Of a stretch of 64,000 bases of DNA, positions 2,183 through 52,492 are shown piece after piece (the stretch's first letter is position 1; each line of letters starts with the position of its first letter). The DNA is from Glandiceps talaboti. Lineage: Eukaryota > Hemichordata > Enteropneusta > Spengelidae. A program made the position numbers and the translations under genes. The stretch covers positions 11,287,134-11,351,133 of the forward strand of contig NC_135562.1 of NCBI RefSeq assembly GCF_964340395.1, in the 5' to 3' direction. Below the pieces are notes generated by a model that was not told the DNA's origin, did not search any database, and worked only from the letters and a program-made list of their open reading frames with translations.

Positions 2183-5100
2183 ATGGCGCGTCTGTTAGGT
2201 GTGGTTGTTCGTAGCTGTGTTATTTTGGCAACGTTTCTTGCAAGCACGAGTGTTTGTAAAGCCATAGACTGGGATCCGAGGGGCTACATACTTTACTGTC
2301 CCTGTATGGGTAAGTATTTTGTCAGTTCATCGACAGATAACACCCGAGCAGGGGATGTGCGTAATTCTGGTAGCTCATTGTGTTAGTTAGTTAGCGCTGC
2401 AGGACGTGCATAATATAGGCGCTCTGTAAGTTATTTTTGAAGAACAGAATAATATGCATTTTGGTGATGGCCGTACTAGTCTACTTTTACATACAAATGT
2501 CAATTTTACCTTAGACCCGCGACCCTCCATGATTTTACCGATAAATAGTGAGGCCATGCTTTGAAACCAAACTGAAGACATGCAACTGAGCATGTTATGA
2601 CTAGTTTATCACATTACCTCAATCAATAACAATTAATTGACCACAAGCCGAAGAAAGTCATTTTACTGCAGGGGTCGGTCCCATGATCTGATTTCTACAA
2701 AGATAGCATAAATATGCTGTAAAAAAATACCAATATCATATTTCTGAAGAATGAACACATATATGCAATACCATCACCTCTCTTCGCCCACTCATTTGCA
2801 TATCAGACACACCCAGGGCATGATACAGACACATCGCAACTTCATGAGGTCACAATATGATATTTTTTCCATTCATGACAGGACGCTACACAAATCAAGT
2901 AGACCAACTGCTAGGATCGTTATTCTTTGCCAAAACAATCAACAGAATTCTAGTGATTCCGCCATTTATTGATTACCCATGTGGTAAAAAATCCCACGGC
3001 CATGGTATACAACTACCAATTCATCTAGCACCAAATGTAAGCACAATTTTTCTTTCTTTTTTTTGCTCTCTTTTTATTTCCAGGACGCTTTGGTAATCAA
3101 GTTGATCAGTTTCTTGGGTCTCTGTTCTTTGCCAAAACTGTAGACCGTGTACTGGTTATACCGCCGTCAATTTGCTATCAACATCACCTTGGTCATAACG
3201 CCAAGAATGTAAGCATGCACTCATAAATAGTTCTCAGTGATATATATAGCTTTGAATTATCAATTTTTGCATAGTGTTGATGTTGACACTGTCAACCTGG
3301 AAAGTTTCGCTATTATTTTCATTTATTTCACTGGAAAACTATAAATGCAAAAATGCAACTAAAATGCCTTTTTCATTTTTGTACATGAACACATTGTACT
3401 AGAGTAAGTCTGGTAATTTAGTAAAAGTTAGTCTTTGAGAATTAGCTGAAAACTGAAGAATCATAAAATTTTTCAGTGGTGAAATTTATCCAGGTTTACA
3501 GTGTAAAGTTGTGTATTTGCACTCAGTATTATTGGTAGGATTCTTGTGTCTTCATTTAAGGATTTCATCCTATTTCCACTCCTGCTATAACTGTAATAGC
3601 ATTTATGTTAATTAAAATCATTCTACTCTCATACTTTGACCTTTGACCTTTCCACGCCTAAATTACTGATAGCAATTAGAAGTACTCCAATCATTGTAAG
3701 CAACCCCATAGTGAGTCTCTATAACACTGTTATTACTAGAATTTTGTGTTTCAATTGAATTGATGAATACAAAAGGAACCTGAACCACTAAGAAACGCCC
3801 ATTGTAATATTGTGATTTTCTAATCTATTGCTATTATGGATAGTACCACTATGTTAAAAGCCTGAGGCAAACAATAATGGCTTCTGTTTTGACAACAAAT
3901 CCCAATGCAATGGCTAAAAGCTGAATATTTTTATTAACATTATCCAACTGTTTCTGGAAAGTTTCGTGACAAAAGAGAAAATGGTAGAATTTGGTAAACA
4001 ATGTATTTTGCATATCTAGAATCATAATTTTGTCAGGGTGCATTTGTAAAATGGCGAGACATTTTATAATCAACAATCCATAAAACACTTTATTTCTGTG
4101 TCATTGTCACTGCATTTGAGTACAAGTACACATGCTTCAGCTATTGTGATTAATTCAATTTTGTGTTCTGTATGTAGAAAGTTAGAAAAAGAAAGAGGTA
4201 TCATTTTGTAGGTAAAAATTATCAACCATGATTTAAAAATACACCAACAATCATCTCAGAGTCAGTAAGGTGCCAGACAGATCATATCACCTTACAAAGT
4301 GAATAAAAGACAGTTCCCTTGGTGTGAGGTCAAGAAACGTGGGTTAGTAATTCCCACTAAACTAGGGGGTTCTACCCAAGTCTAAAGAAATCCTGATTAA
4401 GTTTGTGTGTCATAATCTGATTGGTTGAAAGTCATCATGAATAATGCACAAGGGTCAGAGGATGACCTCAAGTCAGAGTTTGTTATTGTTATGCAAATTA
4501 CTGGTAGTTTGAAATGACAACAAAAGGTAGGCCACTGAGTAGGTGTGCATGTATACCCGTTGATTTGATTTGTGTTGTTTTCTTGTAGGGTTTTTATATC
4601 AATGCAAAAGTTATTGATAATGCACCCATCATAAAAAGTATTAAATCACTGTTGTTTCAAGTCAAGACTATTTTACTAAGGTAGAAACAAGATGAAAGTG
4701 AACCTGAAACTAATGACACGTGTTGACCATGGAAGTTTCAACCACAGGACTTTCAGTTATCCTTCAATAGAATACTATAAATTGTTAGAATGTACTACCA
4801 AAACAGAGTGACTATAGATTTTCAATTAGATGGAAAGATGACATCTCGCTCAACATTTTTTGTTACAAATTACACACACAAAAAGTACAGTTATACTGAC
4901 AGCATGCATACACATGGAATGTTACATTTTATCTCACTGTGAACACAAATAAAGTGTTTGAATCTTCCTTGTTTTACCTGAGATTGATGTGATTTCTGTT
5001 CAATCACAGTGAGATAAAATATATTAATTCATATACTTGTGTGCTATAGTGTCTGTATTTTGTTTTATGTAATTTGTAACAAGAACCTGGGCCACTATAA

Positions 5101-6471: not shown

Positions 6472-9400
6472 TGTGGCACATGTTTCATCTGACCCTACTA
6501 AATTATGTACAAAGACACAGACCCATTTTGGTAATGTATCAATATATGTTACAGTAGTTTGTGTTCATACTTTGATTGGAAGGCACTGTCAGAACTTTAA
6601 CCACCATTAAAACAGTTTCCTGTATTTCCTAATTAAATTTTATATCTTTTAACTTCCATTTTATGTCTTCCACATCCACTACTTGTTTTTCTTTGATCCC
6701 TTTTAAACAGACTTTTGATTTTCAAAGTAGATATTTACCTTGGTAGTTGAGCCTTTAGTTTACTATTAGATAGACCATAGACCCTCGTTGGTGGAGGGTC
6801 TATGGATAGACACAAACTGAAACTATTGTCGCTCATGTTGATGCAACAGTGATAAGCTATTGAATGGATGTTGGTTTAATTATAGTCTCAGTAGGGAGTC
6901 CAAGTTCCAAGAACTTGCAGTGTAGTGTTTAGGGACTTCCAATGTTTATGCTATGTTGATCACAGGGTGATTAGAATCACACAACAGAGGAACCGCCATC
7001 ATCCACTTGTGTAATCTACCACATTGAATGAACCCTGTGTCTAGGTTTGATTACCATTGTTGTATGTGATTGTAGCAAGGTTTGTTTACATTGAAGTCGT
7101 AAACCTTGAATACAAAGAATTCATGTCTGTAAGGGACACTGTGATGGGGCGCCCTCACACATCGGCCAACCCCTACCACCAGAGATGAGAGGAGGCTGGC
7201 GAGGGCGAAACGTCATGACATATCTTACAGTCTAGTGAGAGTGGAGCGACACAACATATCAAACTGTCTACAGTGACTTAAGCCAAGATCAACTTGTAAA
7301 AACCTTAGGGACTATCGCACAATGTCACACAAGCTCAATAAATGAACTTTGTTCATTTAGGGGGAAGGGGAGGGGGCTGGCATCAATGTGATTGTTGAAC
7401 TTCATGTTCACACTTCATACCAACTTTTGAAAACCTTTCAATTCTAAAGTATTTACTACCGAGATGTTATGTCGATTAAAATTTACTGCCAATGTGATAT
7501 GTAGTGCTGGCTTTCCAGTTAGTATGCTAATGTTTTTACATTGTATTGTTAGTGGTGTGACTGCTACAGTTTTCATCATAGTCAAAAGTGTAGATGTCGC
7601 ACTCGTGAATGTTCATTTTAGGAGGGAGGGGTTTTGAACAAAGTTTATATATTGAGCCTAGGTGAGATTGCCCCTTATATGTATATTTTAGAATTTACTT
7701 GAGTTTGTTTTTATTCAAAACACAGGTCAATATAAAATTTTTTGTGCATGTAAGTTGTAAAGATGCAATGTTAGTATATAAAACCATTAGGCAGAATATG
7801 TATTATTATACTTTTACGCCGAAACTTTTACAAATATTTTTTTTTTAAATTTCTAAAATATAACAAGATAATAAATTTATGGTTTTACAGTCTGATAAAT
7901 CATGTATGGTTATATTTTAATCTGAAACTTTCAAAATATTTTTTTTTTAAATTTAAAAAAAGATTTGACCAGGTCAAATTTAATGCTGTTGTAGACTATC
8001 TTGTAACAGAAAGTGTACAAACTGGTAGTGCAGTGTTATCCTTTTGATGATGCAATACAACATTGGTATGTAGACTAGCAAATTGGTATAAACTTAGTCC
8101 ATAATGATGGCAATGTTTAATGTATAGGAAATTGTAACTGATGACCTCAGGTCTAATTAGCATAACAATGGTTGTCATTTTACACACATGTTGCCTAGTA
8201 TCTAAAATAGTTCTAGTAATTGTGTAGAGAATGACTGAAATGACAATTTGATGAGATACCTTTGTTTATAGGCCTGGCTAGTTTAGGCACGAATGATACA
8301 ACTCTATTCACTGTTCATTATACATACCTGTTACCATGGTAACTTTGATATCTCAATATTGTATGTAGAGAGACCATTCAGACATATATATATATATATT
8401 ACCACATGATCTCATGCGAAAACTAATATGGATGTACAGCTATTCAGAGAGCGATGTCTGACCTCATAACTTCATGCTAAAAGTAATTTGGATGTACACG
8501 CTATTCAGAGATATATCTGACCAAGTAATCTCATACTAAGTGAAGTGGAAAAACAATCATACACTTGCAGGGTCAGAATGAAGGTCACAGCAATGATAAG
8601 TGATAAGTACCATGTTTTTAACTGGATTTTTAAAATTACTTCCATCTGGTCGCCGGTTCCGTGCCCCCCAAATTAGAATAATGAGAGCAAAAACAAGTTT
8701 TATCCCTAATGAAATCAATATTATAAATAATCCAAGGTCGAAAAGTTAACATACCATCAAGAACTGTTGACTTTTTAACTTCAGTGATGCTTGATTGTGT
8801 ATGTATGTATGTATGTATGTATGTATGTACGTATGTACGTACGTACGTACGTACGTACGTATGTTCATTTCTGTACATTAGGTGGTTTATGTCAGGTGTA
8901 TTACTGTATGTGTATTATTGTAGTTTTGTATTCTTTTGAGACCACAATTACTTAATTTCTCTGAACAGAGATAAAGTTTCTTGTATCTTGTATACTAAAG
9001 GTAATTTGGATGTACACACTATTCAGAGAATTACCTGACATGATCCCATGCCAAAACTAATGTGGTTTCTTCTATGTACAGATTTACAGACCATACACAG
9101 AGATGTTTGATTTGGAGGCAGTCCAGGAATACCACACTGTCATCACTATGGAAGATTTCATGGAAGACTTAGCACCATATCATTGGGCCAAGGGACAAAG
9201 GAAAGCTTACTGTTCAAGGAAAGCTGCAGAGTTTAACGAGGACTCTCATGGTGATCATGTGTGCACCAGGGTAAATATTCATTTGGTCTTTCCACTGAAA
9301 AGAAAATAATCATAGCTCGCCAATGAAAGAGAGCTACTTTGTCTGGCACTTACCATTGCAATATAATGTTGGTGTGATGTAGAATGACAGAACTGATGAT

Positions 9401-12400
9401 GTAAACACTCATTGCTGTGATGTAGAAGATGAAACTGATGATGTAATCACACATTGCTATGATGTAGTATGACAGAACTGATGATGTAAACACACATTGC
9501 TATGATGTAGTATGACAACTGATGATGTAAACACACATTGCTATGATGTAGAATGACAAAATTGATGATGTAAACACACATTGCTATGATGTAGAATGAC
9601 AAAACTGATGATGTAAACACACATTGCTGTGAGAAAGAACATGCATAGAAATAATTCCAGTAAATGGAAATATATTTTCAGTTTTAACAGTGTCATATGA
9701 ATGGTTACCATGTTAACGCATGACAACACATTATTTATTGGTAGGGTTATTGTAACCATGGAAACATAGAAATGTGGTTTAAGTCGTATAGTTTTGTATC
9801 TGATATTAAACCATAATTTGTGGGTAATTATAGTAATGCAGAGAGGTGATCTGGTAAAAAATTATTTTTTTTGGGGGGGGGGGGGGAGGGGGGTTTACCA
9901 AGGTAAAGAGCTGAAAAATGTGAGGAATATTCGGCTTGAGCGTTTGTCAAAAACACAATTTTATATTCTTTTTTATTTCTAACAGCCTGGCAATCCTTTC
10001 AAGACTTTCTGGGACTACTTTGACATTGAGTTTGATGAATCCGAAATCTGGGATGATTTACATTTCAACGTAGATTACGATGAATGGAGGCAAGGATGGA
10101 TGGAGAAATATCCACCAAGTGACCACCCAGTTTTAGCATTAATGGGAGCCCCTGCACAGTTCCCGGTTACCCAGGCCAATGAAGCACTCCAACAATACGT
10201 CAAATGGAATAGTGATGTCAAGGAAGAAGCTGATGACTACATTGAGAGAAATCTTAGACGGCCATATGTTGGTGTTCATCTCAGGAATGGAGCTGATTGG
10301 GTAAGATTTCGTTTAAAGAGTTCAGCAGTCATCTGGTTTCAGACACGCCCACACACGCATACATACATACATACATACACACACACACAGACACAAAATC
10401 CTCACCAGTAACTGCAGACACCCAAACAACACTTTGTTCCTGAACATAAATTGATGTTTTACAAATGAAGTTTGCCCTGATTAAAGTATACTTAGACATC
10501 CTTGCTTTTGTGGGTTGCCGATTAAAACTGAAACAGTGAAAGGGGATGAGTACCATTGTCTGGGTGCAGTGCCCTCAGTGGCAACAGCCAGAGGGGTCTA
10601 GCAGCTAGACTAAATGAAACATGCCTGATAATTTAATTCATTTCATATGTCATTCATTTTGTAGGTGTCAACTTGTAATATGGCTGATGGTAAAACATAC
10701 ACACATCTGATGTCTTCACAACAATGTGTTGGTTATCATCGGGACAGAGCATCACCCGTTACCAAGGAGATGTGTATGCAAGGTGAACCCCAAGTTGTGA
10801 GAGAGGTCCGTGAAGTTGTACAAAACATCGACGCTAGAACTGTCTACATCTCAACAGATCATCAACCAATGTTGGAAGATTTATCCGAGACTTTAGAAGA
10901 TTTAAATGTAAGTAATTATATTACTGGGCCCTTGCTTGCAACGCAGATAAATACAGTATGAGTACACATTTATATAAAGCACCTTCTAAAATGAATGTCC
11001 ACGATCCATAACCGTCTGTATACATGTAATCATTCTCCTGGCACAGACTGATATTCGCAGTGGCCCTCTATAATTTCAACTCTGCAGGGAGCATATATAT
11101 AGAACTAAAGTATTCATATTGCAACCTCTATCCTACCAGGTACCCTATTATACAGCTGGGTTGGTTGGTTGGTTGGTTGGTTCAGATCTTACCGAAGGAC
11201 TTCAGTCATTCAGTAATAAATGGCAGCAGCGAGGCTTGAACCAGTAACCTTCATATTCCAAATTGGCCATGCTAACTATTTGACCATTATGAATCTGAGT
11301 CTGCATAAAATGTATAAAATTCATTTTTACATCTATTTCATGTTTTCTTTGTTGTGCTCTATTGACAAATTATAATTCATATCCTTTTCAAACCAACAAA
11401 ATTAAATTAGTGAATACTTAAAGAAAGAAAGTATTACTCAGTCTCTGGTAAATTGAGCCTTTGGTTTTCTAAGATAGACACAAACTATTGTCACAACATG
11501 TTGATACAACAGTGATAAGCTATTGAATGGACATTGGTTTAATTATAGTCTCAGTACGGAGGTGTCGCAGAAAACTAGTTTGTTTAGTGCAGTGCTGTTT
11601 TGGGACTTCCAATGTTTGCACTATGTTGATCACAGGGTGATTAGAATCACACAACAGAGGAACTGCTACCATCCACTTGTGTAATCTACCACATTGAAGA
11701 ACAATAGATTTAGTTTGTGTCTATCTTAGTAAACCGAAGGCTGGATTATCATAGACAGAGTCATATTTGAAAGCTGGTACATAAAACATACCAGGCAGCT
11801 TTCTGTATAATTTCACCATTCCAATCAAACTGTACAAAGTGGGGACAGAGTATGTAGTGTTAGCTTAGAATCTTAGTCAAGTGAGGAGTTTTGTCTCTCG
11901 TCATTCCTCTACCACACCTGGCATTTTGCTAGTAGCCATTTATTCAAAACCTAAAATTAGATTACAATTTCCTGCAGTGATGTTCACCCCAACTGAATAT
12001 ATGGTAATTATGCTTACATCCATCCGAGTTGGTTCTAATCATGTAGTGACATTGTAGATGTCATCTCTGTGGGAAAAATTTCATTATAGAGTCATGCCAG
12101 GTAATGATAGTAAAAAGACTTGGAGCAGTGTCAGAAAGTATAATATAAAAATTTACACTATTCTCAAAATTATCTAACACCCTGTAATATCATTGCAGCA
12201 TTTCATCCCCATTTCAATGCACTCTTGGAAAAAGGACAAGAGTGGTACTTTTGTTAACCAAGTAATTTTTCATTACTATTTCTCATTCTACAGGTTGAAG
12301 TTTTCCACCTAGACCCAGAGAAACCAGAACTTGACTTGTACATCTTAGGCGAGGCAGATCATTTCCTTGGTAACTGTGTCTCGTCCTTCTCTGCGTTTGT

Positions 12401-12476
12401 CAAACGTGAACGAGATGTCAATGGAAAGACAACATCATTCTTTGGCTGGAAGGGTGCTTCACATGATGAATTGTAA
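2183..12476 (+). CDS. POFUT1: GDP-fucose protein O-fucosyltransferase 1
   Basis: Transfers fucose from GDP-fucose to Ser/Thr of EGF-like repeats (Notch and others) in the ER lumen. Coding exons: 2183-2309, then either 2882-3036 (2a) or 3084-3208 (2b), 9082-9270, 9986-10300, 10665-10907, 12294-12476. All junctions are GT-AG and the phases agree, giving 393 aa with 2b or 403 aa with 2a (human about 388). A hydrophobic signal peptide ([16 protein letters not shown]) precedes [14 protein letters not shown]. Family landmarks are [14 protein letters not shown] (exon 2b), [13 protein letters not shown] (exon 3), [15 protein letters not shown] and [14 protein letters not shown] (exon 4), [17 protein letters not shown] (exon 5), and [19 protein letters not shown] with FVKRERD (exon 6). 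It ends in HDEL, an ER-retrieval signal. Introns 2-5 hold MITEs, SINEs and simple repeats. Identity is certain; the duplicated exon 2 is the odd feature. Confidence 0.97.
2882..3036 (+). CDS. POFUT1: POFUT1 alternative exon 2a
   Basis: 155 nt, entering in phase 1 and leaving in phase 0, with acceptor TTCATGACAG and donor GTAAGC. It encodes [18 protein letters not shown], then [15 protein letters not shown] and a 10-residue longer tail. The first 30 residues are almost the same as exon 2b and correspond to the human GRFGNQADHFLGSLAFAK segment. The GRFGNQ motif reads GRYTNQ here: Arg and Asn are kept, Phe-Gly is replaced by Tyr-Thr. The reading frame is intact and the splice sites are good, so this looks like a working alternative exon rather than a relic. 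Confidence 0.88.
3084..3208 (+). CDS. POFUT1: POFUT1 alternative exon 2b (canonical form)
   Basis: 125 nt, same phases as exon 2a, acceptor TTTTTATTTCCAG, donor GTAAGC. It encodes [18 protein letters not shown], then [18 protein letters not shown]. It keeps the canonical GRFGNQ and the YQHH of the vertebrate protein, so it is the ancestral-looking version. Only 47 nt separate it from the donor of exon 2a. Confidence 0.93.
3287..3503 (-). mobile_element. MITE, TACTGTAAACC family
   Basis: Terminal inverted repeats: CACTGTCAACCTGG at the left and CCAGGTTTACAGTG at the right. The interior (GTACATGAACACATTGTACT, CTAATTACCAG-like) matches in reverse the copies at 44097-44302 and 57820-58745. No coding capacity. 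Confidence 0.7.
4860..5082. mobile_element. MITE with TTGTTACAAATTACA ends
   Basis: TTGTTACAAATTACA at the left is the inverted complement of the right end (TGTAATTTGTAACAA). A second inner inverted pair (TTATCTCACTGTGA / TCACAGTGAGATAA) lies inside. About 223 bp, non-coding. Confidence 0.7.
5095..5330 (+). repeat. Dispersed repeat copy (second copy near 45890-46130)
   Basis: The segment with TTTCTGAAC..CCATTTTCATTGGTTC and GGTGGAAGGAGA recurs in the same order at 45890-46130. Family unknown and diverged. Confidence 0.45.
6407..6470. repeat. CA microsatellite
   Basis: Uninterrupted CA dinucleotide run in POFUT1 intron 2. Confidence 0.95.
6742..7055. mobile_element. MITE, GGTAATCCAGCC family, copy 1
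   Basis: About 310 bp, closely related to 11456-11742, 17946-18267 and 42187-42493. Shared core includes GATCACAGGGTGATTAGAAT and CACTTGTGTAATCTACCACA. The consensus ends are long inverted repeats reading GGTAATCCAGCCTTCGGTTT. This copy has a small palindrome inserted in its left arm (6774-6805). Confidence 0.8.
6774..6805. mobile_element. Tiny palindromic insertion (32 bp)
   Basis: CCATAGACCCTC, a 7-base loop, then GAGGGTCTATGG: a perfect 12-bp hairpin. It splits the MITE arm and is flanked on both sides by ATAG (6770-6773 and 6806-6809), as expected of a target duplication. A close relative is at 29048-29079. Confidence 0.65.
7124..7235. mobile_element. Short MITE, CTGTAAG..GCGCCCTCACAC family
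   Basis: About 112 bp with inverted ends (TGTCTGTAAGG / CTTACAGTCTA) and the family core GGGGCGCCCTCACAC. Related copies lie at 23246-23352 and 23362-23469, with half-copies at 38658-38855. Confidence 0.65.
7308..7674. mobile_element. MITE, GGGACAATCGCACAA family, copy 1
   Basis: Left end GGGACTATCGCACAATGTCA; the right end is a degraded inverted copy. The interior (TGTTGAACTTCAT, GATGTCGCACT.GTGAA) matches 43263-43650 along its length. No coding capacity. Confidence 0.75.
8373..9063 (+). repeat. Interrupted 60-70 bp tandem repeat before POFUT1 exon 3
   Basis: Three adjacent units near 8390-8545 and a fourth at 8996-9063 share AAAACTAAT.TGGATGTACA followed by CTATTCAGAG. The block between, with the TATG/TACG microsatellite, looks inserted. 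Confidence 0.6.
8803..8863. repeat. TATG/TACG tetranucleotide microsatellite
   Basis: A run of TATG units that changes to ACGT units. Confidence 0.95.
9369..9627. repeat. 42-43 bp minisatellite, 6 copies
   Basis: Consensus starts ATTGCTATGATGTAGAATGA and ends GATGATGTAAACACAC. Lies about 100 bp after the donor of POFUT1 exon 3; the unit does not include exon sequence. Confidence 0.9.
10597..10613 (-). repeat. Solo terminus of a 154-bp MITE
   Basis: GTCTAGCAGCTAGACTA is the exact reverse complement of the left end of the element at 63380-63533. No partner end found nearby, so it appears to be a truncated relic. Confidence 0.4.
11068..11290 (-). mobile_element. tRNA-derived SINE copy 1
   Basis: Read on the minus strand it starts with a tRNA-like head: an A-box-like TAGTTAGCATGG, then a B-box-like GGTTCAAGCC, then the shared tail (CAGCTG..., GGTACCTGGTAGGATAGAGG). 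It has an inner GGTT run. Same family as 16575-16826 and the tail at 35093-35230. Confidence 0.65.
11456..11742. mobile_element. MITE, GGTAATCCAGCC family, copy 2
   Basis: AGCCTTTGGTTTTCTAAGAT at the left and its inverted partner TCTTAGTAAACCGAAGGCT at the right, with the family core between. Lies in the last POFUT1 intron. Confidence 0.85.
12462..12473 (+). other. HDEL ER-retrieval signal of POFUT1
   Basis: The last four codons before the TAA read His-Asp-Glu-Leu, a classical KDEL-type signal. It fits a soluble ER-lumenal POFUT1; vertebrate POFUT1 uses the weaker RDEF. Confidence 0.9.
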
Positions 12477-14209: not shown

Positions 14210-29433
<15,224 letters not shown>

Positions 29434-29904
29434 TTTTGGTTCATTTTCTAACCCTTTGGTCTGAGGTCTTTTTTTTCGAACTGAAAAGTCTAAACATTAT
29501 TTAAAATTTTAGAGTGAAAACTACATTTTGTGATCTAAAATTCAATCTTCTAAAAATCAGTACTCCTAGTCAAATCTGAATGTCTGGGGTTGGCAGTATT
29601 GGCTGCACATCCCAACCAGAACTGGCAATTGGTACTGCCCCCTGGTTACAAACTACTTTCAAAATGGAGTTAAAATGGAGCCTACGGTAACTTTTGTAAG
29701 AAACTGTCATAGTCTTTGTCCTATGTTCTGTCAGCCCCAAAAGAATATATAAATAAATAAAAAAAATGAATAAATAAATAATTATATAAATAATAAATAA
29801 ATTTACAAGAAATGTTAGCAAAAGTAACAAAAAGAGGAATGTATGAAGATTTATGTAACATTCACAGATTCTAATTTTGACTCATTTTCTTTTTCCTTTT
29901 TTAG
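29434..29904. other. RIOK1 upstream / TMTC2 pre-exon-2 region
   Basis: Lies between the RIOK1 start codon (minus strand) and the first recognisable TMTC2 exon (plus strand). No exon encoding the TMTC2 N-terminus (the part ending in the lumenal Asp-Asp pair) was found here. An AT-rich TAAATAAA-type stretch runs at 29742-29803. RIOK1 promoter elements should be here, but I see no distinct motif. Confidence 0.5.
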
Positions 29905-32900
29905 TCGAGCAATTCAGAAGAACCAGGATTTATTACCGGAAACACCATGGCAGAATATATTCCAGAATGACTTTTGGGGGACACCACTGACTCACAGTGG
30001 TAGTCACAAGTCATACCGCCCTCTATGTGTGTTGTCGTTTCGATTGAACTATCTGCTGGCAGAGTTGAATCCATTTGTATACCATCTAACTAACATAATC
30101 CTACATGCTGTGGTCGTGGGACTATTTACATCTTTGTCAGAGTTTTTGTTGAAATCTAAAACACTGGCAGTCCTTGCTGGACTTGTCTTTGCAACCCATC
30201 CTATACACACTGAAGCCGTTGCTGGTGTAGTTGGCCGGGCAGAGATCGGAGCTGGATTATTCTTTCTTCTATCATTCATGACATACATCAGATACTGTCA
30301 GTGTAGATCACTGTCAATTTTACAAGTTGATGATCCTATCAGCAGACAACAATACTCGGTGAAATCATGGATGTATTTATTTTTAAGTCTTCTATGTGCT
30401 TCGGCTAGTATGCTATGGAAGGAACAAGCCATTACAGTACTGGCTATTAATGCAGTCTATGATGTCTTTATCTGCAACAAAATACAACCACTGAGTGTCT
30501 TCCAAATCTTATATAAGGTACGGAATGTACTTAAGAACCTTAATTACCTATTAGGGATAGAAAATGGTTTAAAATAATTTACTTGAACACTATCAGCACA
30601 CAGGAGATTTCATCTTAGCTTGCAAATGCTATTAACGATGTATCAAGATCGATAGGAATGATCACCAGGTTTTATGTTGAGATAGACACAATAAAGTTAA
30701 CACACAAATATCCCTTACATAGTGTCTGCTCTGTAGACACACTAAAGATAACACACAAACATCCCTTACACAGTGTCTGCTCTGTAGACAATACAGATAA
30801 CACACAAACATCCACAGTGTCTGATCTGTAGACACAATAAAGATAACACACAAACATCCCTTACACAGTGTCTGCTCTGTAGACAATACAGATAACACAC
30901 AAACATCCACAGTGTCTACTCTGTAGACACAATAAAGATAACACACAAACATCCCTTACACAGTGTCTGCTCTGTAGACACAATAAAGATAACACACAAA
31001 CATCCACTACACAGTGTCTGCTCTGTAGACACAATAAAGATGACACACAAACATCCACTACACAGTGTCTGCTCTGTAGACACAATAAAGATGACACACA
31101 AACATCCACTACACAGTGTCTGCTCTGTAGACACAATAAAGATGACACACAAACATCCACTACACAGTGTCTGCTCTGTAGACACAATAAAGATAACACA
31201 CAAACATCCACTACACAGTGTCTGCTCTGTAGACACACTAAAGATGACAAACATCCCTTACACAGTGTCTGCTCTGTAGACAATACAGATAACACACAAA
31301 CATCCCTTACACAGTGTCTGCTCTGTATTTTGCTAATGATAACAAAAACAAATACAAATGTAACCAAATGCAGAGCAGACACTATGTAAGGGATCTTTGT
31401 GTGTGTTATCTTTGTGGTGTCTATCTCAGTCTCAAAGACTTTCTGCTATGTCCAGATCTAATTTTAGTGAAACTCATACAGTGACCAAATTTCAAATACT
31501 AAGTATGTAATTTTCACTGAAAGTGGGGCAAGACTGCTTGATGTTCAAGGTGTATATTTTATATAGGTTAGGGAGCATCTGTACTCCTTAACTTTAGTAA
31601 TGGTAGCTCATGTTGTTGAGATGATTACTTCATTGTAGCATGTTTTGTGTACAAGATGCATATTTTAAGTAGGTTAGGGAGTTTGATGGGGGGGGGGGGG
31701 CTATCTGTATTCCTTAACTTTATTGACTTTGATCATTTGATTGAGATATTCATTTTGTGCTTTACTGGACTTTTCATCCAATATTAAATCATGTTAGGTT
31801 ATACTAATTTTGAAATATTGATATTTTCAGCGTAAATATCGTCCGGTGTGTCTTGGTGTTTTAGTAACTGGTTTATGGGGTGTGGCAGTACTGGCGTGTA
31901 GAATATCCATCATGGGAAGCGTTCCACCGGAATTCTCACCATCGGATAATCCAGCATCCAATTCCAGCAGTACCTTGACAAGATCATTAACATATCATTT
32001 CTTACCAGCTTTCAACATCTGGCTACTGTTAAACCCATACTTGCTAAGTTTTGATTGGTCAATGGAAGCCATACCTCTACTAGAGTCAATTAGTGACGTT
32101 AGAAACCTTGCAACATTATTACTTTACTTTAGTTTACTCTTATTTGGCATCTGTAGTTTAAAAGGACTCTCTAGAAGTAACAATGGCGATCTTAACAGTA
32201 ACAACACAGTTACTTCAACATCTAATGGTAAACTTAATTCTACATATCAAAAGCTGCAAAAACCAAAGGTGCTAGTCGAAAGATTTGAAATAATTATATT
32301 GTCTTTAGCAATAATGATAGTACCATTTATACCAGCAACTAATTTATTTTTCTATGTGGGATTTGTGGTAGCCGAGAGAGTCTTGTATATTCCCAGTATG
32401 GGATATTCACTACTCTTGGTCTATGGAGTACATATTTTATGTTGTCGTGTCAACAAAACCAAACACAAGTACTTTTATCTGATTATGTCAGTATTATTGA
32501 TATTGTTCAGTGTTCGTACGTTTCTACGAAATCAAGATTGGCAAACGGAAGAAGCGTTATACAGAAGTGGCATTGCTACAAACCCACCAAAGGGTAAGGG
32601 TTTAGTCCTGCATTTGTATATATAATTAGTTCATTTGCATATCAGTTAACATTGCATGGAAGTGGTATTGCTACAAACCCACCAAAGGGTAAGATTGCAG
32701 CCAGGTTTAGTCCTGCATTTGTATATATAATTAGTTCATTTGCATATCAGTTAACATTGCATAGGAGTGGTATTGCTACAAACCCACCAAAGGGTAAGAT
32801 TGCAGCCAGGTTTAGTCCTGCATTTGTATATATAATTAGTTCATTTGCATATCAATTAACATTGCATAGAAGTGGTATTGCTACAAACCCACCAAAGGGT

Positions 32901-35900
32901 AAGATTGCAACCAGGTTCAGTCCTGCATTTGTATATATAAATAGTTTATTTGCATATCAATTAACATTGCATAGAAGTGGTATTGCTACAAACCCACCAA
33001 AGGGGTAAGATTGTAGCCAAGTTTAGTCCTGCATTTGTATATATAATTAGTTCACTTACATATCAATTAACATAACCTCTTTAACATCAGAAATTTAAAG
33101 AGTTTATTTCCTAGGGACATTCTAAGTTGACATTTGATTTGGATGATTTTCAGCCTTGGTACTGATAAAATGTTTGAGCAAAGCCAACTAAATGTTTATC
33201 AATAAGGTTGACTATCAATGCGAGTTTTCATTGTGACCAGTCAGCACGAATATATTTTCATTGTGACCAGTCAGCACGAATATATTTTCATTGTGTCCCG
33301 TCAGCACGAATATATTTTCATTGTGACCAGTCAGCAGAATAAATTTTCATGGTGACCAGTCAGCAGAATATATTTTCATTGTGTCCAGTCAGCAGAATAT
33401 ATTTTCATGGTGACCAGTCAGCAGAATAAATTTTCATGGTGACCAGTCAGCACGAATATATTTTCATTGTGACCAGTCAGCACGAATATATTTTCATTGT
33501 GACCAGTCAGCACGAATATATTTTCATTGTGACCAGTCAGCACGAATATATTTTCATTGTGACCAGTCAGCACGAATATATTTTCATAGTGACCAGTCAG
33601 TACAAATATATTTTCATTGTGACCAGTCATCACAAATATATTTTCATTGTGACCAGTCAGCACGAATATATTTTCATTGTGACCAGTCAGCACGAATATA
33701 TTTTCATTGTGACCAGTCAGCACGAATATATTTTCATAGTGACCAGTCAGTACAAATATATTTTCATTGCGACCAGTCAGCACGAATGTATTTTCATTGT
33801 GACCAGTCAGCACGAATATATTTTCATTGTGACCAGTCAGCACGAATATATTTTCATAGTGACCAGTCAGTACAAATATATTTTCATTGCGACCAGTCAG
33901 CACGAATATATTTTCATTGTGACCAGTCAGCACGAATATATTTTCATTGTGACCAGTCAGCACAAATATATTTTCATTGTGTACAGTCAGCACGAATATA
34001 TTTTCATTGTGACCAGTCAGCACAAATATATTTTCATTGTGACCAGTCAGCACGAATATATTTTCATTGTGACCAGTCAGCACAAATATATTTTCATTGT
34101 GACCAGTCAGCACGAATATATTTTCATTGTGACCAGTCAGCACGAATATATTTTCATTGTGACCAGTCAGCACAAATATATTTTCATTGTGACCAGTCAG
34201 CACGAATATATTTTCATTGTGACCAGTCAGCACGAATATATTTTCATTGTGACCAGTCAGCACGAATATATTTTCATTGTGACCAGTCAGCACGAATATA
34301 TTTTCATTGTGACCAGTCAGCACGAATATATTTTCATTGTGACCAGTCAGCACGAATATATTTTCATTGTGACCAGTCAGCACGAATATATTTTCATTGT
34401 GTCCAGTCAGCACGAATATATTTTCATTGTGACTTGTCAGCACGAATATATTTTCATTGTGTCCAGTCAGCACGAATATATTTTCATTGTGACCAGTCAG
34501 CACGAATATATTTTCATTGTGACTTGTCAGCACGAATATATTTTCATTGTGTCCAGTCAGCACGAATATATTTTCATTGTGTCCAGTCAGCACGAATATA
34601 TTTTCATTGTGACCAGTCAGCACGAATATATTTCCATTGTGACCAGTCAGCACGAATATATTTCCATGGTGACCAGTCAGCACGAGTTAAATGTTGATGA
34701 ATCTGGACGCAAACCTGTTCCTTGAACTAATGTAGTAATAGCAGCACACAGCTTTTAACTGAACTGATCAGTAATTGGTATTTTCTTCCTTATAAAATTC
34801 AGTATTTTGACCAACAGTTGTGATATGTATTTCTCATTCTTTCTTAGCCTGGGGTAACTTGGCCAATATACTGAAATCACAAGGCAAAGTAGAAGAAGCA
34901 GAAATGGCATATAAGAAAGCATTAGAATACCGTGGTAACATGGCAGATGCACATTATAATCTGTAAGTACTCTTTTATATTGAACGTGAAGGAACCTTAT
35001 GTGGAGCCATGATGAATTTTAACTGTAAACAGTTTTGAATCTGCTAGTTGCTGATGTGAACCTCACTGCTGTTGTATATTTCTGGGCTCAAGATATGAAC
35101 CATGATTGTGCCCTAGTCAGTCTATATGTATAAATGGGGACCTGTTAGGATAGAGGATGCTATGTGAAGGATTTAATTCTGTGCTCTTACAGAGGCTGCA
35201 ATGGATTGTATGCTCTCTAGGGAGTTGAGGAAGTATAAAAGGTCATTGTGCTGTTATTGGTCCATGTTAGGGGTAATAATTTCACAATACTTTTGGAAAG
35301 TGGTAGATGAAAATCTGACATAATCTACAAGATGACCAAATGATATGTCATCTTTCTTTGCTACTTGACATAACCTGTCTCTCTTTTCTACTTTCTTTTT
35401 TCAGTGGTATATTATTACAAGAATCTAATCGAAATGAAGAAGCACTTGAAAGCTACAAGAATGCAATAAGATATAGACCAAGACTTGCAAGTAAGTTGAT
35501 CAATCTGATTAAAAATCTGATGTGGTGAAAGCGGCTAGATGCCTTTATTTACCTCTGTTTCCAGTGTTTTGTGTTGTTTGTTTTGTTCCGAGTGATCGCC
35601 GCCTTCCCACAGCGACAATCACTCAAACAAAACAAAAGACACAAAATAATTGAAATAGAGGTAAATAAAGGCATCTAGCTGCTTTCACCACATCAGATTT
35701 TAATCAGATTGGTAAGGTGATGTGAAGCCTCAAGAGTAGTGCTGAGATACCAGCTACTGTGTTTGTTCATATCGTTTCCTTTATAGTCTTTTAGTTGTAG
35801 TACAAATTCACAATTAATTTTACAATCTCATACCTGTTGGCCCATTACTAGAAAGCTGAATGAAATGATGCAATATAGGTTGGTGGCTTGCATATATCTT

Positions 35901-38900
35901 GATACATTGTTTCATTACTTACAATTGTTTGCCTACATTTTGATAGAGTGATTTGCATAAACCTCGATACATGGTTTCAATACTTAGAGTGACTCACCTA
36001 CATCTTGATACATTTCAATATTTACACTTTTTTGCCTACATCTTGATACATTGTTTCAGTATGTACTGTGGCTTATCTACATCTTGATACATTGTTTCAT
36101 TACTTACAGTGGCACATCTGAATCTTGGCATGACCTTGGCAAATGTTGGGAGACAGGAAGAAGCTAAAGTTGTGTACAGACATGCTGCTACTATGGATGA
36201 CATTGGACTCAAAGATCCCAAAAGTCAGAATAAAGCTATCATTTCAGCCATTTATAATCTAGGTAGATTGTATCATGATGAAGGCAACTATCAAGTAAGT
36301 AACAAATATATTGGTCTAAGATTCTAATAAATGGCAGCAGATAAAATCATATTTTGAGAACAATCTATATACAGAGCTTATGTTATATTGACTGATCTCT
36401 CTAAAAATGATGGCAACGATGATGACGATGACACATTGACGGTGACGACGACGATGGCAATAAAGATGACAACAACAATGATAGTGTTAACGATGATGAT
36501 GATGGCACATTGACGGTGATGACGACAATGGCAATAAAGATGACAACAACAATGATAGTATCCTAGGTGATGATAGTGACAACAATGATGATAGTGACAA
36601 TGATAGTGCCCTTGATGGTGGTGGTGGTGGTGGTGACATAGCAACAAGCAGCAAAAGACAGTAGCACAATTGATAGGGAAAGACTAAATAATGTGACAGC
36701 CATCATGTATTTATGTTAAGTGTGGTATTTACATCTTGTTGATACAAATTTGTGTATTGGTGTTTGTTTTCAGGAGGCATCAACTATTTTCCAAGAAGCT
36801 ATCGATAGATGTCCTGAGTACTACTCTCCTCAGAGTTTATATAACATGATGGGTAAGACTCCTTATCTTATCAAAGTTTATATAACATGATGGGTAAGAC
36901 TCCTTATCTTATCAGAGTTTATATAACATGATGGGTAAGACTCCTTATCTTATCAGAGTTTACACAACATGATGGGTAAGACTCCTTATCTTATCAGAGT
37001 TTGTACAACATGATGGGTAAGACTCCTTATCTTATCAGAGTTTACACAACATGATTGGTAAGACTCCTTATCTTATCAGACATTGTACAATATGATGGGT
37101 AAGACTCCTTATCATATTGTACAATATGGTAGTTTAAAATCCTTATCATACCAGAGTTTGTACAACATGATGAGTAAGACTCCTTATCTTATCAGAATTT
37201 GTACATGTTTGATAAGATCCGTTATCTTCCTGCCATGTTTACAACATTATGGGATGTGACTCCATGTTCTTAAGGTTTGTACAATGCAGTATATTATACC
37301 CCTTAGTTCCTCAGAAGTGTGTACATTATATGTCATACCACTTAGTTCCTCAGAAATGTGTACAACATACATGTCAGTCATACCCCTTAGTTCCTTAGAA
37401 GTATGTACAAGATCTCATATCACTTATTTTGTTTGTACAAATGATGCATTCTTAATTCTAATTTTATACTCCTTATATTTTATAAAAAATAACATAAACA
37501 TAAAACATTTAAATGCCTGGGTATATGTCAAGTTACTGTAGTCCCTGTAAACACATCCAGTAAAACTTTGTAAAAATGGATTTCCCTGACCTTTGACCCT
37601 TGACCTACAGCTTGTTTTGATTGGAATGATGACCTCTAGTTTCCATCCCGACCTTTTAACCACATAACACAAACCTGTAGATTTCTATCAACTCAGAGTA
37701 AAGTCTCAATCTTTAAAGTTGTTATTCATGAGTCGCATGGTTAATATAATATAAAGATGGGTGTGTTTTAGTTTATAAAATGGTGTCCCATACGTGTTCC
37801 TTACTACTGGTAGTATTTTTATAAGCACTGAGATGAACTACTAGTATTCTTCATGTTTCCGGCACAACATGTTTTATTTCACCATATGATTAAATGAATT
37901 AACAGCCCTTCATTGAAATACACAACTATTACTTACCAGTGTTGGTCTATTTCAAATGTCAATTTTATCCAATGCCCATGTTGAGTATATTCATTAAATT
38001 CATACAAATCTAGCACTTCACCCAGTGCAAACACAGACAAATATCACACCACACTTGCTCCAACAATGAATTCTCACATCAAAAGTCAATCACTTCATCC
38101 ACTGCACATACACAGTCATATCCCATCTTTGATGCACAGTGCAGTCTTGTATCACAAGTTAGACAATGTGACGAAGTTCATTCTGATTGGTCAGAAAACA
38201 AAGGAAACAAGCACATCTGTTGGCTGTATTGTTAATGAGTAATAAAGTTATATGTATGTTATCCAATCAGAGGTAACCTTGAGATAACTTTACATCACCC
38301 CCTCACAAGTCAATCACTTGGCTTAATGCACACAATGAAATCTTGTGGTACACGAATCTATCACCTGGTCAATGCAGACACATACACACTCCTGGAGTAT
38401 ACTCGAGTACATATTATCCTAACAGTTATTCAATAGGTGTGTATGTGATTGGTTTTCTCACAGAATGAATGAAATGCATTGAGATCACTGTTCTTACTGT
38501 CGACTGCTCAAGTTTCATAATGAAAAAATATAGTATACAGTTCATATTGTCCTGTCTACAATTGAAAAATATGAAATATCCTGGAATAAGTAGGGATACG
38601 AGTGTTAATCAGAGAAGAGAGATAGCATTTCCAGATTCAGTAGAATTTAATTCAATATGACAGCTAGTCTGCAAGGTACACAGTGACGGGGCACCCTCAC
38701 ACATTGGTCAACCCCTCCCAAGACAGCTAGTCTGCAAGGTACACAGTGACAGGGCGCCCTCACACATTGGTCAACCCCTCCCACAGCAGCTAGTCTGCAA
38801 GGTACGCTGTGACAGGGCACCCTCAAACATTGGTCAACCCCTCCCATGACAGCTAGGTAACTTCCCTTGTCTTTCCAGTATACAATAATATAGTTAAAAT

Positions 38901-39092
38901 AACAGACATGAGTCATAATCAGATACAAGTAATCTAATGTATTGTAACTAACAAACATTATTAATTGCTTGGCTGAAACTATGTATGCACGTTATAATGT
39001 TCTAACTAACATTAATGTTAAAGGTACTTTCTCCATGTTATTCTTTCATTTTGTTAATATCAAAGATTATAGTTTATATCCAATTATATATC

Positions 39093-39132
<40 letters not shown>

Positions 39133-39321
39133 TGTCTGTCTGTCTATGTATGTATGTATGTATGTATGTATGTATGATGCTAATTTCGTGTATGTTTGTG
39201 TGTATGTATGTGTATGTTTGTGTGTATGTATGTATATGTGTGTGTATGTGTGTGTGTGTGTGCGTGTATGTGTGTGTGTGTGTATGTGTGTGTATGTGTG
39301 TGTGTATGTGTGTGTGTGTGA

Positions 39322-39410
<89 letters not shown>

Positions 39411-40764
39411 TACAATCAGAATCTATTGAAACAAATCGTAAAGCTAAAGTGTCGTAATTTTATCCTATGGAGAACATACCCTAACAATGACATTAATATT
39501 GACTAGCAGTTGTAAAAACCACCAAGCTGGCTGAGGCTGTCACTAAACTATATGCATTCTTATATGTGCACAACATCAACATAAAACTGATGTACAATGA
39601 TATCCTTATATCTCTGCTATTTAGTAGATGTTTGACATGTACTTGTATTTGTTCGTGTTTTAATTGCATGCCATATATATTGTATTAGGGGATTGTTTAT
39701 CCAAACTTGGTCAGTACGAAGCAGCTGAAACTTGGTTTCAGAAAGCATTATCAGTGAAGGCAGATCATGTACCTGCTTATTTAACCTATGCACACCTGCT
39801 AGATACGACTGTAAGTATACTAATTATCACAACAGCCAATCAAATTTTATGTAGCTTGGTTACAATCAGCTTTTCTTGCAATATTTGCCAAGAAATTCGC
39901 ATGTGCTATTTAGTGGACAAGCTGTGTATGAAGAAATATATGTATTTGTTTGTTGCTGCATTCAGAAGGACATTGACTTTTGTACATAGTGAATAGATAC
40001 TGCAAAGACTTTATTAAAAGAGATATAGCAAAACATAGGTAAAACAGTCCTTTAAGCTGTAATGACATGTTAGACGGGAACATCACTCCAGGAAACAGAC
40101 ATTTTCATAGACTGTGGGTTCTGGAGGGTCATTTCATGATTTTACATCATCTACAATTACTTTTTAATTAAATGTGTTTTCAGAGAAACAACAAGTTGAT
40201 CTTGTGCCTTTATAGGGTATCTTTGCTATGGTGCCAATGCATCATGGGAGCCAGCAGAAATAATATATTCATGGCTGAACAATGAATTTTAATGACTCCT
40301 GAGTGCCGCTTCAGTGTAAAACATGTGTCATGAATATTCATTGACTCTCCAGAACCCAAAGTTCATGAAAATGCCTTTATTTCCTGGAGTGGCGTTCTCC
40401 TTTAGGAGAAATTTACCTATTTTACCATTTTTATACATATTGATAGCTATGTGAAATGTCCGTTAGTTGCTGTACTATTCATGATATGGCTTATAACACT
40501 TCTGATAATGTGTACAGTTGTATAATTGTTTCTGGTTTTCACCAAAGGGAAGAAATGAAGAAGCTGAACGTATGCTGAATAAGGCTTTAAGTTTAGAACC
40601 TAACAGTTCAAGTGTCTACCAACACTATGGTGAGTATGTGTAGTGACTATCTATATGATGCAAACATACACACAAACAAACAAACACTCAGATAGACACA
40701 GGCAGACATACACTAAACAGATACATACAATATCAAACAAGTGTTCATACATACATACATACAT

Positions 40765-40832
<68 letters not shown>

Positions 40833-42088
40833 CTGGCATACATTCACAGTATGGAGAGACTAAGGTCAATACAACTTCCATGTTATTTAATTCTGCTATG
40901 ATTTGATGGTATATCTATATCTTTTATTATTAGGTCAACACTATGCTCAGAATGAGAAGTATTCAGTTGCAGCATCTATGTATCAGAAGGCAGTAGAACT
41001 GAATGGTGATGACTTTGACATTGTCTTCAATGCTGCCAATGCACACAGACAAGCTGGACTCAAGGAGAAAGCTGAGGTGTATTATTGGAAAGCTGTACTA
41101 CTAAAACCACAGGTAATGGCAAATGTTATCAACTCTGTTCAAATACATTTCAGGCATATTCAGAACATTGCAGCAAAGATCATCATGTGGGCCAAGAAAT
41201 ATGATCACATAGCAACAATCCTTAAAGCACTCCACTGGCTACCAGTACAGGATAGAATTATTTTAACTTTTGTTGATCACTTACAAATCTCTGAATGGTC
41301 TGTTGCCAACCTACATATCTAACCTAATTCACATGAAGGCAACTCCCAGGATGAACCTAAGTACAAACTAGTGTCATATGGTGCATGTGTTCTTATGTGC
41401 TGCACCCCATCTATGGAATACACTGCCATTAGAAATATGACAAAAACCAACAGCTGATGCTTTCAAACAGAACTTGAAGACATGTCCTTTCTCCAGTCTC
41501 AGTCTGTACAGCACCTCTGAACTCAACATCGTAGTGGAAACTGGTTCTTTATAAATTCACTGATTGATTAATTGATTGATTGATTGATTGAATTTCATTC
41601 ATTTGTGTCTTACATATGAATACATTTAATTCCTTTGTTAATTGTTATTACTGGTCTTACTGTTAATCAGTGCAAGTGTGCACCCTCTAAGTCAGTTTGA
41701 CAAGTCACTGATGCACACTATTTCTAGTGACACACTAAAATTTGGTGTTCCCCTATCTCTTACTATGTGGTGACACAGAAATGGCAGTTTTATTGTACTG
41801 ACCCACAACAACAAAATTTGGCTATCCGATGATTAGAGGGCATACTGGTGTCAATGAAGCCTGGTGTATTTCTGAATACCTATAAATTAAACCCTGTATT
41901 GTTGTTGCTGTTGTTTTTGTTTGTAGGAGCCCAGTGCACATCTGAATCTTGGAGCAATGCTTCATGTGAATGGCAAACTAAGGGAAGCTGAACTACAGTA
42001 TATGAAAGCATTGAAGCTAAAACCAGATGATGAAATCACAAAGTCTAATCTCAAGAAGGTCAGAACTCTAATCAATAAAAGTAAATGA
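29905..42088 (+). CDS. TMTC2: Transmembrane and TPR repeat-containing protein 2 (first exon missing)
   Basis: ER multi-pass protein of the TMTC family, linked to O-mannosylation of cadherins. Exons: 29905-30517, 31831-32593, 34848-34962, 35405-35490, 36110-36294, 36774-36852, 39689-39810, 40548-40629, 40934-41112, 41927-42088; all GT-AG, phases agree, 794 residues. The first exon starts at the human SRAIKTNQD point (here RAIQKNQDLLPETPW) and reads NDFWGTPLTHSGSHKSYRPL and ATHPIHTEAVAGVVGRAE, almost identical to human TMTC2. Exon 2 of this list covers the DUF1736 region (SDNPASNSSSTLTRSLTY, LLSFDWSMEAIPLLES) and several membrane spans, with VGFVVAERVLYIPSMGYSLL. The rest is about eight TPR units (AWGNLANILKSQGKVEEAEM to SAHLNLGAMLHVNGKLREAE). 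Human has 836 aa, so about 28 N-terminal residues, including the first lumenal acidic pair, are missing here. Confidence 0.95.
30679..31429. repeat. 51-bp minisatellite inside an inverted-repeat element
   Basis: About 13 units of CACAATAAAGATAACACACA.. ending CAGTGTCTGCTCTGTAGA. The right edge (31369-31429) is an inverted single copy, and the left edge carries the same extra TGAGATAGACAC as its mirror. The 51-bp period (divisible by 3) creates long spurious open frames on both strands. In the first TMTC2 intron seen. Confidence 0.9.
32560..33060 (+). repeat. 105-bp array covering the exon 3 donor of TMTC2, 5-6 copies
   Basis: Unit: GAAGTGGTATTGCTACAAAC..CCACCAAAGG (exon end, SGIATNPPK), then GTAAGATTGCAGCCAGG and intron sequence to TTAACATTGCATAG. 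The first copy is the real exon end (donor at 32594); later copies keep the exon piece and GTAAGA donor. Confidence 0.93.
33218..34690. repeat. 30-bp minisatellite, about 48 copies
   Basis: Unit GTGACCAGTCAGCACGAATA plus TATTTTCATT, very uniform. Variant units (CATAGTGACCAGTCAGTACA) recur near 33587, 33737 and 33857, showing block duplication. Because 30 is divisible by 3, open frames of over 400 codons run on both strands; they are not genes. Fills most of a TMTC2 intron. Confidence 0.97.
35093..35230 (+). mobile_element. SINE tail fragment
   Basis: GGGGACCTGTTAGGATAGAGG and GCTATGTGAAGGATTTAAT match the SINE at 16575-16826 in the opposite orientation; the tRNA-like head is absent. Confidence 0.55.
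35501..35711. mobile_element. Foldback element, about 95-bp arms
   Basis: CAATCTGATTAAAAATCTGA.. through GCCTTTATTTACCTCTG is mirrored by CAGAGG-like TAGAGGTAAATAAAGGC.. to TAATCAGATTG, with AGTGATCGCCG / CGACAATCACT near the loop. Starts 11 bp after the donor of the TMTC2 exon ending at 35490. A degraded relative is at 45224-45425. Confidence 0.8.
36407..36652. repeat. Degenerate GATGAC/GACAACAATG simple repeat
   Basis: Imperfect trinucleotide-type repeat with a roughly 100-bp second-order period (ACACATTGACGGTGACGACG recurs). No gene; in a TMTC2 intron. Confidence 0.85.
36833..37200 (+). repeat. 42-bp array covering the exon 7 donor of TMTC2, 8-9 copies
   Basis: Unit: AGTTTATATAACATGATGG (exon end, SLYNMMG) followed by GTAAGACTCCTTATCTTATC. 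The first copy is the real exon end (donor at 36853); later copies diverge gradually but keep GGGTAAGACTCC. Confidence 0.92.
38658..38855. repeat. 63-bp tandem repeat of a MITE half, 3 copies
   Basis: GACAGCTAGTCTGCAAGGTA..GGGCRCCCTCACACATTGG..CAACCCCTCCCA repeated three times; matches one half of the 107-bp MITE at 23246-23352. Confidence 0.85.
39097..39404. repeat. Compound GT/TATG microsatellite
   Basis: GT runs interleaved with TCTG, TATG and GTGTATGT units. Open frames on it are artefacts. Confidence 0.97.
40072..40405. mobile_element. MITE, CACTCCAGGAAATAAAGACA family, full copy
   Basis: About 60-bp inverted arms: GGGAACATCACTCCAGGAAA..GGGTTCTGGAGGGTCA at the left, TGACTCTCCAGAACCC..TCCTGGAGTGGCGTTCTCC at the right. 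Non-coding, about 334 bp, in a TMTC2 intron. Confidence 0.8.
40747..40830. repeat. TACA/CA microsatellite
   Basis: TACA units followed by a CA run, in a TMTC2 intron. Confidence 0.95.
41130..41596 (+). mobile_element. LINE 3' end (CR1/L2-like), 5'-truncated
   Basis: Starts within 20 bp of the TMTC2 donor at 41113. Translation gives IQNIAAKIIMWAKKYDHI then ILKALHWLPVQDRI, the conserved C-terminal end of ORF2 after the reverse transcriptase in CR1/L2/Jockey-type LINEs. In another frame it reads CAAPHLWNTLPLEI and FKQNLKT. The frame is broken at least twice. It ends in a TTGA repeat tail (CTGATTGATTAATTGATTGA), typical of CR1/L2 microsatellite tails. Confidence 0.75.
41677..41845. mobile_element. 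MITE with GTATGCCCTCTAA ends, copy 2
   Basis: Matches 13657-13870: CACCCTCTAAGTCAGTTTGA, AAAATTTGGTGTTCCCCTAT and the right end TTAGAGGGCATAC; one internal block is missing. Confidence 0.75.
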
Positions 42089-47715: not shown

Positions 47716-47790
47716 AGCACGACGTGAAAGCACGACGTGAAACATCATTGTTGGTATACTTCAAATTATACATTTTAGATTAGTATATGC

Positions 47791-51571: not shown

Positions 51572-51654
<83 letters not shown>

Positions 51655-52323: not shown

Positions 52324-52492
52324 AACTTAACCTAATACTTATCCAGATTAGTAAGTATTTACGATATCCTATTTAGAGAAGACGCGTAATAATCTAGGTA
52401 ATATGCTGTTACTCTATCAAAATGAAGTGATTATAATAGATTGTGCACGTCAGGACGACTGACTAACCCCCATTATGATAATATATGCAATT

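Follow-up and report, generated by a model that had tools for sequence, protein, structure and literature searches.

Tandem, probably mutually exclusive exons spanning the catalytic loop and most of the EGF-contacting hairpin of POFUT1 in the acorn worm Glandiceps talaboti

The gene for GDP-fucose protein O-fucosyltransferase 1 (POFUT1), which fucosylates Notch, carries two adjacent versions of its second exon in the hemichordate (acorn worm) Glandiceps talaboti, named 2a and 2b. We consider it likely that the two form an ancient mutually exclusive pair, with one or the other in each mRNA, because both are intact and constrained, are compatible with the reading frame singly and incompatible jointly, and because the 2a type is also present in sea urchins. 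The window, that is the whole stretch of 64,000 nucleotides that was analysed (RefSeq assembly GCF_964340395.1, contig NC_135562.1, positions 11,287,134 to 11,351,133), holds within its first 12.5 kb one complete POFUT1 gene on the + strand, built as follows:

2183..2309, + strand: POFUT1 exon 1, with the start ATG and a signal peptide-like N-terminus (...YCPCMG); leaves in phase 1.
2882..3036, + strand: POFUT1 exon 2a, 155 nt; open frame with AG/GT sites, 75% identical to 2b over 32 residues, with a tail common to urchin X1 proteins.
3037..3083, + strand: intron between 2a and 2b, 47 nt; long pyrimidine tract, with the likely 2b branch point predicted at intron positions 7-10.
3084..3208, + strand: POFUT1 exon 2b, 125 nt; canonical type, identical to P0001.
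9082..9270, + strand: POFUT1 exon 3, shared by both forms; phase 0 at either end.
9986..10300, + strand: POFUT1 exon 4, shared; its HLRNGADW stretch holds the equivalents of worm Arg240 and Trp245.
10665..10907, + strand: POFUT1 exon 5, shared.
12294..12476, + strand: POFUT1 exon 6, shared; terminates in HDEL-stop.

Spliced through exon 2b, the gene encodes a protein identical at 393/393 residues to P0001, which NCBI annotates as GDP-fucose protein O-fucosyltransferase 1-like isoform X2 of Glandiceps talaboti; aligned to the window by tblastn, P0001 matched positions 2183-2317 at 96%. The 2a form is 97% identical to the 2b form where the two align, and it could therefore be the second member of the P0001 cluster, which counts two members at 90% identity. 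The two Glandiceps forms score 214.5 and 226.8 bits against the Pfam O-FucT family (PF10250; cut-off 31.5), and an O-FucT domain with a GT-B fold like that of solved POFUT1 was found. The equivalents of worm Arg240 and Trp245 (R257 and W262) are encoded by a shared exon and are identical in 16/16 aligned rows. The loop (GRFGNQ) and hairpin (YQHH) of the 2b form are the ordinary ones of the family; the gene departs from an ordinary POFUT1 in having two versions of exon 2, with a longer and different hairpin encoded by 2a.

Just upstream of the gene, at about 600-1750, a stretch judged by eye appears to be the remains of a retroelement (VTDHSNLTYMF...), with two reading frames that have no Pfam match, and a reverse transcriptase fragment of a retroelement (RVT_1) lies at 47779-48279. 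Positions 29828-41322 hold likely exons of a TMTC O-mannosyltransferase gene with large minisatellites in its introns; Pfam matches are TMTC_DUF1736 at 31822-32622 and TPR at 39664-39993, and 29828-30574 is TMTC-like by eye, with no Pfam match. A 105-bp tandem repeat of 4.5 copies at 32599-33073 repeats SGIATNPPKGK from the end of a TMTC-like reading frame, possibly an exon end multiplied together with its donor. It is followed at 33225-34685 by a 30-bp minisatellite (48.8 copies, 95% match) that leaves more than 420 codons open in two + frames and one - frame. The - strand carries two fragments of a rhodopsin-type GPCR (PF00001) at 50317-52326 that probably belong to a single gene as exons, and 100 N at 27310-27409 mark an assembly gap.

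All exon coordinates given by an earlier sequence-only reading hold, as do the lengths of 155 and 125 nt, entry in phase 1 and exit in phase 0, the GT/AG sites and the intron of 47 nt. That reading had also proposed that either exon keeps the frame and both together break it, and this was borne out when the exons were joined: with exons 3-6, 1-2a-3 splicing yields an open protein of 403 aa and 1-2b-3 splicing one of 393 aa, and both 1-2a-2b-3, which meets an early stop, and 1-3, which skips both exons, are frameshifted. Thus the two exons are alike in intron phases, usable singly and frame-breaking in joint use. They are also adjacent homologues at the same position of the gene: a six-frame search of the window aligned them at 75% identity across 32 residues (E 4e-13 and 3e-13) and turned up no third copy of exon 2, the next best match having an E of 0.051. 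The close alignment proposed for the two exons holds for these first 32 residues and fails for the tails beyond PPxIxY, which measure 20 residues in 2a and 10 in 2b and are not recognizably alike, 6,538 of 20,000 shuffles scoring as well. Over the first 30 codons, 29 of 90 bases differ, distributed 7/3/19 over the three codon positions; the excess at third positions (19/29) has P = 3.9e-4 against an expectation of 1/3. The dN between the exons is 0.16 (0.16-0.19 over 30 to 33 codons), and dS is not computable, i.e. saturated. Because of this combination of low dN, saturated dS and third-position bias, both copies have evidently long been constrained to code for protein, and exon 2a is not a decayed copy.

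The short intron offers a plausible means of exclusion. It contains adenines at positions 3, 4, 7, 9, 10, 40 and 46 only, and the sole AG ahead of the acceptor lies in the donor (positions 4-5). The adenine at position 40, 7 nt from the intron end, is judged too close to serve as a branch point. The 2b branch point is thus likely one of those at positions 7-10, which would place it 7-10 nt from the 2a donor and 37-40 nt from the intron end, an ordinary distance. Some animals do splice introns as short as 47 nt, so the size of the intron alone is no proof of exclusion. Most branch points are reported to fall in the stretch bounded by the acceptor and the nearest AG upstream of it (PMC5224494). 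A parallel for steric exclusion is described in an unrelated enzyme, vertebrate OGDH, for exons 4a and 4b, where mapping placed the human branch points 25-41 nt from the donor and a steric limit of ~50 nt was proposed (PMC7969005). Any branch point inside the 47-nt intron falls below that limit; those of POFUT1 are predicted, at 7-10 nt, whereas the OGDH ones were mapped (PMC7969005). A survey of human mutually exclusive exons reported such closeness of donor and branch point in 57 (9%) clusters (PMC5740500). Exclusion between 2a and 2b is therefore probably steric: U1 on the 2a donor and U2 on the 2b branch point would be unable to bind together at this spacing, and any double-included mRNA would be frameshifted anyway. 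The branch point might also lie within exon 2a, in which case 2a would be excluded just as effectively.

The acceptor of 2b stands out in the gene, with 35/40 pyrimidines in the 40 nt before its AG, against 23-27/40 at the five other acceptors (24/40 at 2a). Tract strength and canonical sequence hint that 2b may be the default and 2a the regulated form. The hint is a weak one because in U2AF1, whose duplicated exons Ab and 3 are chosen through the organization of branch point and pyrimidine tract, with a long tract before one of them, the long-tract exon is the repressed one; U2AF1 is moreover a splicing-factor gene (PMC5224494). Separately, GCATG was seen at 3213, close to the donor of 2b, and TGCATG at 4546 and 7745 in the long intron 2, occurrences that chance may explain. 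GCATG is the core of the RBFOX binding motif.

Exons of the 2a type are not confined to Glandiceps. A full-length protein search gave 530 matches, of which the best 120 were considered with one protein per 90% cluster; besides the window, 2/122 fetched protein entries are of the 2a type, namely Lytechinus variegatus X1 (P0011) and Diadema setosum X1 (P0014), both sea urchins, with the pattern GQF[AS]GQVEQLLGTLYFAK...PPFINYPCGRKTHxH. The Glandiceps tail PCGKKSHGH recurs in them as PCGRKTHxH. Of the 122 fetched proteins only P0011 and P0014 have the PCG[KR]K hairpin; the other 119 with the motif region lack it. Segments of the 2b type (YQH) are found in Glandiceps X2, Saccoglossus X2, Anneissia X2, Antedon X2, Strongylocentrotus X2, Pseudocentrotus and P0015, which is taken to be an echinoderm protein, as well as in Ptychodera X2, whose model begins inside exon 2, and in Apostichopus X2, with YSH instead of YQH. 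The Ptychodera flava X2 protein (P0005) begins MPPFIEYQHH... and so is missing the catalytic loop and all of exon 1, perhaps a consequence of how alternative exons are annotated. When run against the window by tblastn, P0011 and P0014 reach 68.6 and 68.9 bits on its 2a against 45.8 and 47.0 on its 2b, while Saccoglossus X2 scores 53.9 bits on 2a and 82.8 on 2b. The tails sort in the same way. The score of the Glandiceps 2a tail is reached by 1/20,000 shuffles against Lytechinus 2a and by 0/20,000 against Diadema 2a, and by 14,266/20,000 against the Strongylocentrotus 2b tail. For the Lytechinus 2a tail the figures are 15,749/20,000 against the 2b tail of Glandiceps and a borderline 1,089/20,000 against that of Strongylocentrotus; the two 2b tails of Glandiceps and Strongylocentrotus are matched by 81/20,000 shuffles.

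Within the urchins, the resemblance changes at the borders of the exon. Lytechinus X1 agrees with Strongylocentrotus X2 at 12/13 residues just before exon 2, at 23/32 and 3/10 inside it, and at 269/305 after it; with Diadema X1 it agrees at 28/32 and 18/23 inside exon 2 and at 223/305 after. Its exon 2 is thus closer to that of Diadema and its remainder closer to Strongylocentrotus, as alternative exons predict. Among the labelled ambulacrarian proteins examined, 7/7 X2 are of the 2b type and 2/2 X1 of the 2a type, a division expected in 1/36 cases under random labels, although this pattern is a weak one, noticed post hoc in annotation labels that are also common among the vertebrate proteins listed. 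Dedicated searches with the 2a region were less productive: that with Glandiceps 2a kept 3 proteins out of 4 candidates, P0001 and two from Mesorhabditis, all with an ordinary GRFGNQ and no PCG tail, and that with Diadema X1 kept just Diadema X1 itself and Lytechinus X1 out of 7 candidates. When a tree was built from the 32 exon-2 columns that all rows share, the three 2a rows did not come together (2 changes), and a single origin appeared in 8% of 200 bootstrap trees; the tree was put aside as a test of the origin of 2a, having too few columns to resolve much and being compatible with a single origin. The 2a/2b pair is probably older than the echinoderm-hemichordate split. The proposal of tandem exons with a mutual-exclusion architecture in POFUT1 was thus upheld and extended, in that the gene is complete, 2a is constrained as coding sequence, and its type is common to two sea urchins.

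Exon 2 spans the segment from the Gly preceding the loop Arg to the residue aligned with mouse Asn87, which comprises the whole catalytic loop and most of the hairpin. Roles have been published for the loop Arg and for the catalytic Asn (worm Asn43, mouse Asn51) (PMC3180450, PMC8631701); Asn43Ala and Asn43Asp are reported to have no transfer activity, and in simulation the Asn shuttles the acceptor proton (PMC8631701). In mouse POFUT1, the hairpin Val72-Ser91 is described as moving while it keeps contact with the EGF domain via His80 or Phe85 (PMC6096484). The motif region is present in 121/122 fetched proteins and the Asn in 117/121, the exceptions being the two urchin proteins of the 2a type and two crinoid X2 proteins. 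The latter, P0006 from Anneissia japonica and P0007 from Antedon mediterranea, are of the 2b type with GRFGSQ, the catalytic Asn being replaced by Ser; in crinoids, the other form is perhaps the active one. Glandiceps 2a reads GRYTNQ and keeps the loop Arg and catalytic Asn, with loss of the EGF-contacting His and a hairpin longer by ten residues. In the urchin 2a type (Lytechinus, Diadema), the loop Arg is changed to Gln and the catalytic Asn to Gly, which suggests that this form is transferase-dead.

The sequence-only reading had stressed a change from Phe-Gly to Tyr-Thr beside the Asn. The change is there, but it is probably the lesser one, because the Gly is already replaced by Ser in some 2b types (Strongylocentrotus, Pseudocentrotus, Apostichopus and P0015) and because Glandiceps 2a keeps Arg and Asn. 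The longer segment of ten residues, also proposed, is real, and the swap to a longer hairpin is the bigger change, its mouse equivalent contacting the EGF acceptor. Nothing was found in support of a possible change of sugar donor, and a switch of donor specificity was set aside, Arg and Asn being retained in Glandiceps 2a. Structure prediction gives the Diadema 2a-type protein a POFUT1 fold with the insert at the tip of the hairpin. All three known 2a sequences have an invariant Cys-x4-His-x-His in the hairpin, and one may speculate that it binds a metal ion or a thiol.

Other accounts of exon 2a have to be weighed against these data. It might be a regulatory (poison) exon, spliced mainly together with 2b so that the frameshift leads to mRNA decay and tunes the amount of POFUT1, the 2a protein itself being unimportant. 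The frameshift and early stop of 1-2a-2b-3 agree with such a role, which is nevertheless quite improbable given the constraint at first and second codon positions, the annotated urchin proteins that carry the 2a type in a full-length reading frame, and the 47-nt intron that makes joint inclusion unlikely. A dead or dying duplicate, recently useless, unspliced and open by chance, would fit the ordinary 2a acceptor tract. It is very unlikely in view of the saturated dS with low dN, the third-position bias, the intact splice sites, and the 2a-specific tail shared with sea urchins. The divergence at 29/90 bases, well beyond that of haplotypes, and the occurrence of both types as proteins in other species also make it extremely unlikely that two haplotypes or paralogues were collapsed in tandem by the assembly, the run of 100 N elsewhere in the window (27310-27409) being what could be cited for an artefact.

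Alternatively, urchins and acorn worms may each have duplicated the exon independently, with the copies growing alike later. The 32-column tree, in which the 2a rows are not united, and the difference between GQF[AS]GQ of urchin 2a and GRYTNQ of Glandiceps lend themselves to this account, but it would require the same insertion point right after PPFI[DN]Y and the common PCG[KR]K[ST]HxH, a likeness reached in at most 1/20,000 shuffles, to have come about twice; concerted change of the first halves in each lineage would account for the tree as well. We regard independent duplication as improbable.

An inherited pair of mutually exclusive exons is the reading we prefer, and its consequences can be drawn from homologous structures. 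One exon swap would exchange at once the loop of GDP-fucose and catalytic Asn and most of the EGF-contacting hairpin, with 2b, bearing the strongest pyrimidine tract of the gene, supplying the default fucosyltransferase and 2a a regulated form. In Glandiceps 2a, GDP-fucose binding would probably be kept, as Arg and Asn are retained, and the longer hairpin without the conserved His would alter which EGF repeats are held or for how long. In urchin 2a, where the Asn is also lost, the protein is predicted to be transferase-dead and might act as an EGF/Notch chaperone or competitor. Such a form need not be useless, because Drosophila OFUT1-R245A, which is transferase-dead and chaperone-active, is reported to rescue embryonic neurogenesis via its chaperone activity; the likeness is a possible one, and OFUT1-R245A differs in being an engineered point mutant at another residue and no splice form (PMC2242781). 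Counting against a chaperone role, point mutations of mouse Pofut1 that leave it without activity are reported to destabilize the protein and abolish Notch1 signalling (PMC5667770). A bolder version, tentative and rather doubtful at present, is an Ambulacraria-wide inherited splice switch by which POFUT1 becomes an EGF-binding protein that no longer fucosylates (urchins) or is re-targeted (hemichordates), and whose Cys-x4-His-x-His hairpin could bind a metal ion or the thiol of an unfolded EGF domain.

We found no report of mutually exclusive exons in POFUT1 among the matches listed from the open-licence literature (PubMed Central); one paper there, on wool shedding in sheep, contains both terms (PMC11670804). 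In this pair, alternative exons would be exchanging the active site of a glycosyltransferase, for which the literature searched offered no second example. The debate on whether sugar transfer or chaperoning underlies the role of POFUT1 in Notch signalling has drawn on engineered mutants. Two natural forms, present in a hemichordate and in sea urchins and differing in exactly the catalytic loop and the EGF hairpin, would make this question testable in tractable embryos. If the Ambulacraria-wide switch is true, splicing would separate chaperoning by POFUT1 from the sugar elongated by Fringe, and would tune Notch without Fringe.
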